From the NCBI GenBank assembly GCA_026129405.1, contig JAHCID010000001.1:1395237-1459236 (forward strand): a stretch of 64,000 bases of DNA, read 5' to 3'. Shown here piece by piece: positions 12,859-17,308 of this stretch (position 1 is its first letter; each line of letters opens with the position of its first letter). The DNA comes from a bacterium. GTDB taxonomy: Bacteria; Desulfobacterota; Binatia; DP-6. The notes beneath the pieces were generated by a model. It saw only the letters and a list, made by a program, of their open reading frames with translations. It had not been told where the DNA came from and did no database searches. Both the position numbers and the translations under genes were made by a program.

Positions 12859-15084
12859 TCACGGAACGGTCGTGAGCTCGAAGATGCTGGTCCGTGTCGG
12901 CAGCGCCGTGCCCGGTTGGTCGGCCTCGTGGGCGACGAAGAGCAGCGGCTTGCCGGTCCAGCTCTGCGCCGCCGGCACGAAGGCGAGGCCCTCGGGAGCG
13001 AGGTCGCCGGCCGGCTGCGCGCCGGCGGTGACGAGGTCGCCGTCGAACACCACCTGCGTGCGCTCCCACTCCTGGAAGATCGGGGCGGCGGGGTCGGTCA
13101 CGTCCCACACCATGATGCCGTTCGCGCGCTCGAGGCCGACGAACACGAGGGTGCGCCCCTCGGCCTCGCCGACCACGAGGCCCTCGGGCTCGGGCCCCTT
13201 GTTGTCGGAGCGCGTGTCGAAGCCGTCGCCGGGCGACTTGCCGACGCCCGAGTTGTGGAAGGCGGGAAGCTGGGCGGCCACGATCTGCTCGATCTGGTCG
13301 CCCGAGTCGAAGACGAGCGCGCCGGTGGCCGGGTTCCAGATCGACATCGACCGGCCGCCGAAGACGTAGAGGCTCGCGATCGGATTCGGCGCGGCCGGCA
13401 GCGGGAACTGGTTCGTGACCTGGAGGCGCGACAGCTCGTCGTTGTCGGCCAGCGCCGGGATGCCGTCGCCGTCGCGGTCGAGACCCGCGAGGCCGCCCGC
13501 GAGCGTGCGGCCGGCGAGGTCGCCGCCGCGAACCTCCTCGTTGCCGCCGCAGGCGGCGTAGTCGCCGCGGCTGTCGCCCTCGTTGGCGGTGGCGAGATAC
13601 GTGACGCCGCCGATCGTGAACGTCCCGATGCCGTCGGGCTGGTACATGCCGAGCACCGGCCAGGTCGCGATGGCCAGGGCAGGATCGTTGCCGCTGCCGT
13701 CGCGGTCGCTCGGGTCGAGCGCGTTCCCGGCGAGGCTGTGGTCCTTGTAGCCGAACGAGCGGATCGACGTCAGCGACGCGCTGGCGACGTCGATCGTCGC
13801 GTAGGCGTTCGCCTCCTGGAGCGAGGTGTAGAGCGTCGTGCCGTCCGGCGAGAAGGCGACCGACTCCGGCTCGAGGTCGTGCGCGGCGTCGATGCCGAGG
13901 CCGAAGATGCGGATGCCGGCGGCCCGCAGCGCGTTCTCGGTGCCGTTCAGCGAGGCGAACGAGACGGTCGTCACGTCGGTCTGTGTGATCGGGTCGGACG
14001 ACAGGTCGATCAGCGAGATCGAGCCGACCGGGTCGACGTAGGTGGAGCCGTCGCAGCGCGGCTCGCCCTCGTTCGCGACCGCGAGCACGAGGCCGTTCGG
14101 GCTGTGCACCACCATGTCCGGGACGGCGCCGACGGCGACCGACGTGATCAGGTTGCCGTCGACGTCGAGGAACACGACCCTGCCGGGGTTCTCCTTGACG
14201 CCGTTGACGACGGCGACCGCGACGCGGCCGTTGCGCACCGAGACGCTGGTCGTGTCGCTGCCGAACGCGGCCATGCTGACCGAGGTGACGAGGGTCGGGC
14301 TGGTCACGTCGGCGACATCGACGATGTCGACGCGGTTGCCCGCGGCGATGAACATGCGCCGGCTGGCCGGGTCGACGGTGACGATCTCGGCGCCGCGCAC
14401 GGGCGGGTCGTACGAGCCCTTCCACACGAGGTCGAACCGCGGCGGCGTGGTCGTGGTCGTCGTGGTGCTGGTCGTGGTCGTCGTCGTGGGTGGGGGGAAG
14501 AGCGCGCCGTCGACGGCGGCGAGGAAGGCGTCGATCATGCCGGCGATCGCGGCGACGTCGCCGGCGGTCGTGCAGCCGCCCTTGGCTTCGGCGCGCGCGA
14601 ACCCGGCCGCGAGCGCGCTCGCGCAGCGGGCGGCGCGGGTCGGGGGGAGATCGCCGCCCTGCGCGGCCTGCCGCGCTTCCAGGGCGCCGGTGCAGTAGAC
14701 CCTGCGGGCAGCGGCACGCAGCTTCTCGGCCTGGCAGGCGTTCGGGATGCCGACCGACAGCTGCGCGCCGAGGTCGGCGACCAACGCCGTCGCGAGCCCG
14801 CCGGCGGTCGCGGCGTCGGCGGTCGTGGGGCAGCCGCCGCGGCGATCCCACTTCGCGAAGGCTCCGGCGAGCTTCCCCGCGCAGGCCGCGACCTTGGCCG
14901 CGTCGGGGGGGAGCCCGGTCGCGGTCTGCTTGCCGGCGAGCTTCGCGGCGCACGTAGCGGCGCGCACGGTGGCGCGGATCTTCGCCGCGGCGCAGGCGTT
15001 GGGTGCCTGCGCGTGCGCGGGAGCCGGAGCAGCCACGAGCCCGGCGAGCGCCATTGCCGCAAGGGTCCACGTCCTGATCGTCAT
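12859..15084 (-). CDS. secreted choice-of-anchor-I family beta-propeller with duplicated four-Cys N-terminal domain
   Basis: Exported protein of 741 residues. Residues 1-25 are a signal peptide (TLAAMALAGLVAAPAPAHAQ). Residues 31-171 hold two tandem copies of a helical domain with identical cysteine spacing, CX13CX22CX16C. A poly-Thr linker (about 200-213) leads to a seven-blade-like propeller of the choice-of-anchor-I family, related to alkaline-phosphatase-associated and mesenchyme-type repeats; LEPESVAFSPDGTTLYTSLQ and YLATANEGDSRGDY are its hallmarks. No C-terminal anchor is present. The ATG at 15084 has GAGAGGTGACC upstream. The propeller may bind ligand or have phosphoesterase-like activity; this is not shown. 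Confidence 0.8.
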   Translation of the reverse strand: MTIRTWTLAAMALAGLVAAPAPAHAQAPNACAAAKIRATVRAATCAAKLAGKQTATGLPPDAAKVAACAGKLAGAFAKWDRRGGCPTTADAATAGGLATALVADLGAQLSVGIPNACQAEKLRAAARRVYCTGALEARQAAQGGDLPPTRAARCASALAAGFARAEAKGGCTTAGDVAAIAGMIDAFLAAVDGALFPPPTTTTTTSTTTTTTTPPRFDLVWKGSYDPPVRGAEIVTVDPASRRMFIAAGNRVDIVDVADVTSPTLVTSVSMAAFGSDTTSVSVRNGRVAVAVVNGVKENPGRVVFLDVDGNLITSVAVGAVPDMVVHSPNGLVLAVANEGEPRCDGSTYVDPVGSISLIDLSSDPITQTDVTTVSFASLNGTENALRAAGIRIFGLGIDAAHDLEPESVAFSPDGTTLYTSLQEANAYATIDVASASLTSIRSFGYKDHSLAGNALDPSDRDGSGNDPALAIATWPVLGMYQPDGIGTFTIGGVTYLATANEGDSRGDYAACGGNEEVRGGDLAGRTLAGGLAGLDRDGDGIPALADNDELSRLQVTNQFPLPAAPNPIASLYVFGGRSMSIWNPATGALVFDSGDQIEQIVAAQLPAFHNSGVGKSPGDGFDTRSDNKGPEPEGLVVGEAEGRTLVFVGLERANGIMVWDVTDPAAPIFQEWERTQVVFDGDLVTAGAQPAGDLAPEGLAFVPAAQSWTGKPLLFVAHEADQPGTALPTRTSIFELTTVP
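14572..14994 (-). repeat. tandem four-cysteine (CX13CX22CX16C) domain repeat
   Basis: Encodes two copies, 86 residues apart, of an Ala/Lys-rich helical unit. Copy 1 has Cys at 31, 45, 68 and 85; copy 2 at 117, 131, 154 and 171, so all three spacings are identical although the residues between have diverged. This points to two conserved disulfides and an old internal duplication. Confidence 0.75.
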
Positions 15085-15215: not shown

Positions 15216-17189
15216 TCAGCCGGCCAACCGGCAGACGAGCGCGCGCCCGACGAGCGACAGCTGCGCGCGCAGCTCCGCGGCGCAGCCGGCACCGAGGGCG
15301 CCGCGCGCGCTCTTCTTGTCGACGATGCGCAGGCCCTTCGCGAGTCGGCGTCCGGCGGCGGTCAGCCGCTTCGCGGTCTTGCGCGCGGACTTCACCGGTG
15401 CGACCAGGCTGGCCCGCGCCGCGCGGTAGCCCGCCGTCGCGGGCTTCGGCGGCCGCTCGCCGGCGCACGTGGCCTGCGCCGGCAACGCGGCCGCGTCGAG
15501 GCACGGCACGGCGCCGACCGCGGCACGCGCGTCGAGCCGGCCGGCGCCGGAGAGCCGATCGAAGCCGGGCGCCTCGATGTCCACCGCCGTCGCCTGCATG
15601 AGCTGCTTCACCTGCGCCGGCGACAGCGTCGGGTTCTTCCCGAGCATGAGCGCCGCGACGGCGCCGGCGTGCGGCGCCGCGGCCGAGGTGCCGAAGAACG
15701 TCTCGAAGCCCGGCACGCTGGTGGCGACGCCGTCGAACGACGCGAGGTCCGGCTTCTCGCGGATCTCGAAGGCGGGGAAGCGGATCGTCGCGGGTCCCGG
15801 CGAGCTCTCGGCCTCGATGGTGTCGTGGCCCGGGTCGGCGACGTCGATCGACGCCACCGCGACCACCTCGGGCGGGGACTGCTGGCCGTAGATCGCCCCC
15901 TCGAGCGACACGTGCTCCATGTGGACCGAGCGGAAGCAGACGAGGCGGATCGTGCGCGCCGGGTTGCCGGAGAAGAGCGTCACGACCAGCGACACGACCT
16001 GCTCCGTGCTCGTCGGGTTGCCGATCGACACGACCTCGACGGGATCCTGCGTGCCGGTCTGCGGGTTGGTGCTCTGCGCGATGACGTTGGCGGCCGAGCC
16101 CTGGACGACGACGAGATCGAGGTCCGTGCCGGCGCCGCCGAACGGCTCGTCCCACTGGAGCGCGCAGGTCGCGCCGCCGCCAGGCGCGAGCCTGATCTCG
16201 TTGCCGGGGTCGCCGGGCCCGCCCGCGGCGGCGCCGAAGTCGTGGATCACGCCGAGCGGCGGCCCGTAGAACGCCGGCGCGAGCGCGTGCTCCATGAACT
16301 CCCGCCGGCGGTTGCCCGCGGACGTGTGGTACGAGACGCCGCGCCCGACCACCTCGCGGGCCGCGTTCGCCAGCGGGCCGTCCTGGAAGAACGGCTCGTC
16401 CGGGAAGGTCACGTCGTCGACGATCACGCGCGCGCCGGCGTCGGCGAGGCAGCGGACGGTCTCGCCCATCTGCGCGCCGCTCTGCCCGAACGACCCGAAG
16501 AGGAGCGCGGCGCCGGGCGCGACGTCGTGCACGATCTCGAGCATCGCCGTGCCCTCGTCGCCGCCGAAGGCGTTGCAGCGCGGGTCGCTCGGCACCGTCA
16601 CCGCCGGCAGCTCGCCCGCCGCCTGCGAGCGCGCCAGCGAGTCGATGCCGTCGGAGATCAGCCCGAGGACGACGCCCGCGCCGGTCCAGCCGGCGGCGCG
16701 CACGGCGTCGGCGCCGAGCCCGGCGTCGCCGGCGCTGACGACGGCGCCCGCCTGCGTGATCGGCGGCGCCACGGGGCGGATCATGGTCACGGCCGGCAGG
16801 TCGGCGAGCGCGTCCAGCGTCGCGACGTCCGTCCAGCCGTCGACGAGGCCGCCGAAGGCGTCGCTCGCGGTGACGATCTCGAGGCCGCGGCGGCGCAGCG
16901 TCTCGAGCGTGCCCGGGTCGACGCCGGTCACGCGCACGTAGACGTGCATGCGGTCGCCGCGGCGCCAGGCGTCGGCGGGGCCGACCCCGGCGCGGGTGCG
17001 CGGGACGGGTGGGGCGTGGCGCAGCTCGCGCGCGACCTTGTGGCTCACCGGATCGGGACCGTGCTCGGCCGCGACCGGGCCGGCGAGCAGCGGGCTCGCC
17101 AGCAGCAGGGCGGCGAGCACGGCGGTGCACCCCCGGGCCGGGTCGGCCGGCGCGCAACCGGTGTCTGCGATCTGCTCCCGCGTCCCCAT
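15216..17189 (-). CDS. secreted S8/S53-like serine protease (Glu in place of catalytic His)
   Basis: Exported subtilase of 657 residues, signal peptide about residues 20-41 (CTAVLAALLLASPLLAGPVA). The Asp motif is VLGLISDGID (D180) and the Ser motif FFGTSAAAPHAGA (S502). Where subtilisins have HGTHVAG this protein has GGDEGTAMLEIVHDVAPGA, putting E212 in the His position, and VIVDDV (D258/D259) supplies a sedolisin-like oxyanion Asp. This is the S53-like Glu-Asp-Ser arrangement. A jelly-roll-like insert (about 330-450) separates the halves. The C-terminal 90 residues carry four Cys and a Lys/Arg-rich helix. Likely extracellular and probably active at low pH by analogy with sedolisins. Confidence 0.8.
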   Translation of the reverse strand: MGTREQIADTGCAPADPARGCTAVLAALLLASPLLAGPVAAEHGPDPVSHKVARELRHAPPVPRTRAGVGPADAWRRGDRMHVYVRVTGVDPGTLETLRRRGLEIVTASDAFGGLVDGWTDVATLDALADLPAVTMIRPVAPPITQAGAVVSAGDAGLGADAVRAAGWTGAGVVLGLISDGIDSLARSQAAGELPAVTVPSDPRCNAFGGDEGTAMLEIVHDVAPGAALLFGSFGQSGAQMGETVRCLADAGARVIVDDVTFPDEPFFQDGPLANAAREVVGRGVSYHTSAGNRRREFMEHALAPAFYGPPLGVIHDFGAAAGGPGDPGNEIRLAPGGGATCALQWDEPFGGAGTDLDLVVVQGSAANVIAQSTNPQTGTQDPVEVVSIGNPTSTEQVVSLVVTLFSGNPARTIRLVCFRSVHMEHVSLEGAIYGQQSPPEVVAVASIDVADPGHDTIEAESSPGPATIRFPAFEIREKPDLASFDGVATSVPGFETFFGTSAAAPHAGAVAALMLGKNPTLSPAQVKQLMQATAVDIEAPGFDRLSGAGRLDARAAVGAVPCLDAAALPAQATCAGERPPKPATAGYRAARASLVAPVKSARKTAKRLTAAGRRLAKGLRIVDKKSARGALGAGCAAELRAQLSLVGRALVCRLAG

Positions 17190-17199
17190 GCCGCGTGTC

Positions 17200-17229
17200 C
17201 TCGTAACGACATGCCGGGTGCCGCGGCGA
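17200..17229 (-). promoter_or_regulatory. possible leaderless promoter of protease gene
   Basis: Minus strand TCGCCG (17229-17224), 18-bp spacer, TACGAG (17205-17200), ten bases before ATG 17189. A GAGG overlapping the -10 could instead act as ribosome-binding site. Confidence 0.32.
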
Positions 17230-17308
17230 GTTGCGAGCAGCGGCGCCGGCTGCCCGCCGGCGGCTCGCGGGGCGGCGCGAACGTGCCCGCGCGCACGCGT
17301 CGAGCGGG

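Follow-up and report, generated by a model that had tools for sequence, protein, structure and literature searches.

The paired four-cysteine unit at the N-terminus of a secreted beta-propeller protein, encoded in a 64,000-nucleotide stretch of a Binatia genome (hereafter the window), belongs to a family of small helical modules on exported proteins that has not been described before. That this disulfide-laddered helical module tethers exported proteins at the cell surface or matrix is given about an even chance.

The carrier is an open reading frame of 741 amino acids on the minus strand of the window (12859-15084), with cysteines at residues 31, 45, 68, 85, 117, 131, 154, 171, 344 and 512. 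Its features are listed in Table 1. Both N-terminal units read CX13CX22CX16C with a period of 86 residues, and the cysteine positions agree to the residue with those of the initial annotation. Divergence of the copies with the cysteine spacing kept, also claimed there, was confirmed by a BLASTP comparison of the two copies (60.5 bits, 40% identity, 83 columns), and the central LPP, the basic residue preceding GGC and the Thr-rich linker after the copies were found as described. The signal peptide was read from the sequence as lacking a lipobox at C1. The propeller matched PF22494 (E 7.7e-100, 335.5 bits against a cut-off of 32) and NF038117 (E 4.2e-135, 451.2 bits against a cut-off of 300), which makes the protein a clear member of the choice-of-anchor I proteins over that domain. 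The choice-of-anchor name reflects the varying C-terminal anchors of such proteins; the window protein stops shortly after the propeller domain with no C-terminal sorting signal, and has the N-terminal module instead of a C-terminal anchor.

Table 1. Features of the module-bearing choice-of-anchor I protein
Feature	Residues	Window positions	Strand	Basis
Sec signal peptide, predicted cleavage AHA/QA	1-25	15010..15084	-	sequence
Module copy 1, Cys 31/45/68/85, three helices	28-111	14752..15003	-	profile match 2.5e-21; AlphaFold2
Helices of copy 1	H5-31, H37-56, H63-84 (numbering of construct starting at residue 26)			AlphaFold2
Module copy 2, Cys 117/131/154/171, three helices	114-197	14494..14745	-	profile match 1.5e-22; AlphaFold2
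Helices of copy 2	H91-117, H123-142, H152-170 (numbering of construct starting at residue 26)			AlphaFold2
Thr-rich linker PPTTTTTTSTTTTTTTPP	198-215	14440..14493	-	sequence
Choice-of-anchor I beta-propeller domain	231-720	12925..14394	-	PF22494, NF038117

Single-sequence searches revealed copies beyond the window protein in the genome that holds the window. A local profile, built by iteration from these copies and the sequences of 38 relatives, converged at 65 copies from that set, and a 45-row alignment (A4) was used as query for class-wide and phylum-wide genome searches. Against all 467 window ORFs, the family profile matched the carrier at E 1.1e-43 (best single copy 5.3e-23), with the runner-up at E 0.04. 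The family is defined by C1 and C4 with CxxxK, by middle cysteines in matched pairs and by a KAExxGxC-like segment preceding C4; both window copies have these features, in the register designated I below. Conservation falls mainly on structural positions (Cys, Gly, Ala and one Lys), and a binding site is not obvious.

The first 230 residues of the window protein gave no Pfam or NCBIfam match above the curated cut-off, in agreement with the initial view that the domain could not be named. The best Pfam-A hit on the module region was TetR_C_33 (E 0.11, 13.6 bits against a cut-off of 26.8), NCBIfam returned nothing up to E 10, and no description of the module was found in the literature. The module consists of 21% Ala and 14% Lys/Arg, a composition that would suit an Ala/Lys-rich helical sequence with cysteines placed by chance. 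Such a coincidence is refuted by the controls, in which reversed proteins and 2,460 shuffled copies gave no match to the family profile below 1e-4; with the exact cysteine pairing rule and two confident AlphaFold2 models (both below) also against it, its probability is negligible. A weak match of the profile (E 0.0072) to BmGPI12, the GPI-anchored surface antigen of Babesia in PDB 9ftd_A, which keeps the first cysteine alone and no pairing, was taken as compositional and rejected.

Pairing of the cysteines was counted by profile column in 95 non-redundant copies (<60% identity). Cysteines 21 and 36 occur together in 65 of 65 copies, 17 and 40 in 25 of 25, and those of an optional rung, 10 and 47, in five of six; a cysteine at column 17, 21, 36 or 40 is never without its partner among the 95. 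The outer pair C1/C4 (columns 3/57) is complete in 87 of 95 copies, the exceptions being mostly truncated or misframed. Alignment-free raw spacings agree: a cysteine at C1+18 goes with a C3-C4 distance of about 21, and one at C1+14 with about 17. By type, 56 copies are in register II, 21 in register I, four in both, five in register II with the extra rung and nine in neither. One correction to the initial annotation is that its CX13C/CX16C spacing is the minority register, most copies having CX17C/CX20C.

The paired columns have a constant sum (21+36 = 17+40 = 10+47 = 57), as would be expected of an antiparallel helical hairpin with C1-C4 and C2-C3 pairing, and with column steps of 7, 7 and 4 (columns 3, 10, 17 and 21) the cysteines all point to the same side of helix 1. 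The Fisher p values, calculated with kinship ignored (21/36, 2e-25; 17/40, 2e-23; 10/47, 1e-7), overstate the evidence, since the well-supported branches of a tree made without the cysteine columns hold 1-2 independent pairs and the independent-pair test is underpowered. On that tree the register switches at least six times. Taken with the structure models, the covariation strongly supports a predicted antiparallel helical hairpin with C1-C4 and C2-C3 disulfides, the bonds already anticipated in the initial annotation. A long form with the extra rung 10/47 and additional residues inserted into the second helical segment was seen in L006 and L011 (G000:C1:857457 and G000:C2:391771) and in L064; L006 and L011 also have a seventh cysteine in helix 3 of both copies. 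The copies of L064 (frames -2 and -0) and of L169 (G000:C4:128192) cross reading frames, as by frameshift or assembly error.

Structure prediction, likewise proposed at the outset, returned helical bundles. The AlphaFold2 model of the window tandem (9-row alignment) has six helices, three per copy, at a mean pLDDT of 87.5 and a pTM of 0.84; the tandem L123 reached a pLDDT of 92.1 and a pTM of 0.88. In the model, helix 1 holds C1 in its first turn and C2 at its middle, helix 2 holds C3, and C4 falls in the loop past helix 2. The module has no significant fold match in the PDB, an absence which is no proof of a new fold: the best Foldseek E values were 2.3 and 0.42, and the best VIA match, to Pfg27 (Z 9.1, rmsd 4.8, 149 aligned), is in the range common for helical bundles. 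The PDB matches were judged to be generic helical bundles and set aside.

Relations between the two copies of a protein were counted in 33 non-redundant tandems. A cysteine at column 15 is present in both copies of four tandems and in one copy alone of none, and at column 73 in both copies in three of four; L039 and L006 are examples with a cysteine at one of these columns in both copies. Tandems in which both copies have an odd number of cysteines are in excess (7 odd-odd, 3 mixed, 23 even-even; p 6e-5), and the total is even in 40 of all 44 tandems. These counts, which are small, suggest 15/15' and 73/73' as predicted inter-copy disulfides of a pseudo-symmetric block. The registers are mostly shared within tandems (22 II/II, 9 I/I). 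Descent from an ancestral N/C duplication was rejected, identities being equal for N-N (30.2%), C-C (30.0%) and N-C (29.5%) comparisons; the two copies of one protein are 38% identical versus about 30% between proteins, which suggests repeated duplication or homogenisation of the tandem copies. Tandem copies, predicted inter-copy disulfides and the presence of at least 29 copies in the richest Binatia genome could also speak for a block that oligomerises or docks, as a dockerin-type scaffold, into enzyme clusters or a surface lattice. We regard this as distinctly unlikely, as the predicted inter-copy bonds lie within a single chain, the modelled tandem is a closed compact block and no docking partner domain is known.

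The module was found by profile search in 50 of 148 genomes of Binatia; 13 copies, spread over 8 ORFs, belong to the genome of the window. In a phylum-wide sample, 6 of 297 genomes had copies, four of the six belonging to the window's class. The sole clear carrier outside that class, G165 (the only one to have the module among 85 genomes of its own class), has at least five diverged copies (L071, L077, L082, L087 and L092). All are C-terminal in exported proteins and are followed by an apparent second, yet more diverged copy. One weak, apparently misframed match was seen in G138, also of the phylum sample. Scanning 84,980 species with a sequence pattern, an insensitive method and the sole sampling of phyla outside the window's own, gave eight relatives, all traced to the window's class. 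By identical module coordinates, these are the same-family and same-class genomes already listed (G433=G006, G434=G400, G435=G001, G436=G384, G437=G379, G438=G031, G439=G004, G440=G432). Spread by plasmids was rejected, with no match among 72,556 plasmids. The lineage restriction that had been suspected applies, save for the diverged copies of G165, and the profile iterated from the two window copies, the check suggested initially, led to a class-restricted family on varied secreted domains.

Of the 77 carrier ORFs, 45 have two copies and the other 32 a single scored copy. In 68 of them a hydrophobic, signal-like stretch lies no more than 50 amino acids upstream of the module, and 62 have an AxA-like site; C1 as a lipoprotein cysteine was rejected, a lipobox-like C1 occurring in one of the 77. 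A Thr/Pro/Ser-rich linker (at least 13 of 20 residues) follows the module in 16. As had been expected, the module is combined with many unrelated domains: GSDH (8), Lcl_C (6), PETase/PAF-AH-like (5), DUF4215 (4) and pentapeptide (2), with single cases that include choice-of-anchor I, NHL, F5/8, pectinacetylesterase, GDSL, Ig and cadherin-like domains. TIGR02232 was found in 11 of 68 module carriers. Further carriers in the window's genome are a DUF900 hydrolase and an ORF judged metallo-beta-lactamase-like from its sequence, and some carriers are short proteins with little beyond the module. None of 67 complete carriers has a TM-like C-terminus, and no exosortase was found in the window's genome.

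Among these partners, the GSDH, PETase-like, pectinacetylesterase and GDSL hydrolases, together with a linker-joined layout typical of binding modules, would fit substrate targeting, in which the block, like a carbohydrate-binding module, would keep secreted hydrolases and dehydrogenases attached to a plant polymer, lipid or mineral outside the cell and not to the cell itself. We consider this unlikely, since no substrate is common to the pentapeptide, NHL, choice-of-anchor I, cysteine-rich repeat and short proteins. In nearly all carriers from Binatia the module comes immediately behind the signal peptide, a position that would also suit a propeptide or folding chaperone that helps export or folding of the next domain and is then removed. 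That role appears very unlikely: the C-terminal copies of G165 are ill-suited to a secretion-only propeptide, the partner folds are unrelated, and heavy disulfide bracing fits a lasting rather than a disposable part.

The initial annotation had also pointed to the tail of the neighbouring S8 protease (window 15216-17300, minus strand) as a related cysteine stretch. Its last ~100 residues are Ala/Lys/Arg-rich and have four cysteines; the tail is absent among the family profile matches listed, and both this relationship and its assignment as a further module copy were dropped. A C-terminal tail of similar style, 29% identical to that of the protease, is encoded at G000:C2:436587-436886, and used as query it found nothing strong elsewhere in the window's genome. 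The protease tail is possibly a second C-terminal module of the lineage.

The closest known systems share the principle of bracing. Plant alpha-hairpinins have the motif XnC1X3C2XnC3X3C4Xn, and the disulfides of EcAMP1 are 7-29 and 11-25 (PMC7191063). Like the module as predicted from covariation and model, they have two antiparallel helices joined by Cys1-Cys4 and Cys2-Cys3, and the EcAMP1 pairs follow the constant-sum rule of the module pairs. Alpha-hairpinins, however, are short free CX3C peptides, whereas the module forms 85-residue three-helix tandem units on large proteins, with spacings (CX13C/CX16C or CX17C/CX20C) outside their motif. The mitochondrial CHCH proteins, with twin CX3C or CX9C, are helix-loop-helix proteins with disulfides between two antiparallel helices (PMC7925007). 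They resemble the module in this predicted bridging of a helix pair but differ in their shorter spacings, mitochondrial location and dependence on Mia40; the twin CX9C or CX3C motif of CHCH and small Tim proteins is absent from the module, and a Pfam hint of zf-Tim10_DDP in the family (E 0.54) was under the cut-off. No sequence relation of the module to alpha-hairpinins or CHCH proteins was found. The TIGR02232/DUF4215 repeat is, like the module, a cysteine-rich repeat on secreted proteins, but it is a separate acidic domain with the motif CGNG..E.CDDGN and a profile of its own. The bracing principle was already known, and the module differs in spacing, size, tandem use and movable register.

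In the proposed mechanism, each unit is a three-helix module of ~85 residues whose first two helices are held as an antiparallel hairpin by a predicted disulfide ladder. C1-C4 would staple the open end of the hairpin, and C2-C3 would lie along the helices in either or both of the two registers, which differ by a single helical turn. Adjacent units would pack as one compact six-helix block, joined in some proteins by an inter-copy disulfide, and a flexible linker would lead from the block, which follows the signal peptide, to an exported domain of unrelated kind, the choice-of-anchor I propeller in the window protein. Most probably the block would then serve as a hard-wearing non-covalent tether of exported enzymes and propellers to the cell's own surface or a matrix polymer, replacing the C-terminal sorting signal. 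We infer the tethering role from the unrelated partners, the N- or C-terminal placement, the linkers and the missing C-terminal anchors; freely secreted proteins would equally be expected to lack such anchors. The absence of an obvious binding site among the conserved columns and a net charge that is only mildly positive (mean +2.1) also count against a tether. As the module is present in only about one third of class members, it is not a universal anchor. More tentatively, and possible rather than probable, the tandem may be a lineage-specific surface-display system, in which a disulfide-locked six-helix block would bind an envelope or matrix component specific to Binatia and would serve many exported proteins per genome in place of C-terminal sorting signals.

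The module marks exported proteins left blank by annotation in Binatia, a largely uncultured soil lineage, and the cysteine pairing makes its fold legible from sequence alone. The register shift, in which disulfide partners move together by one helical turn, and the predicted inter-copy disulfides offer a clear natural example of disulfide co-evolution. If the tethering role is true, the module would allow surface and matrix enzymes of Binatia to be recognised by sequence.
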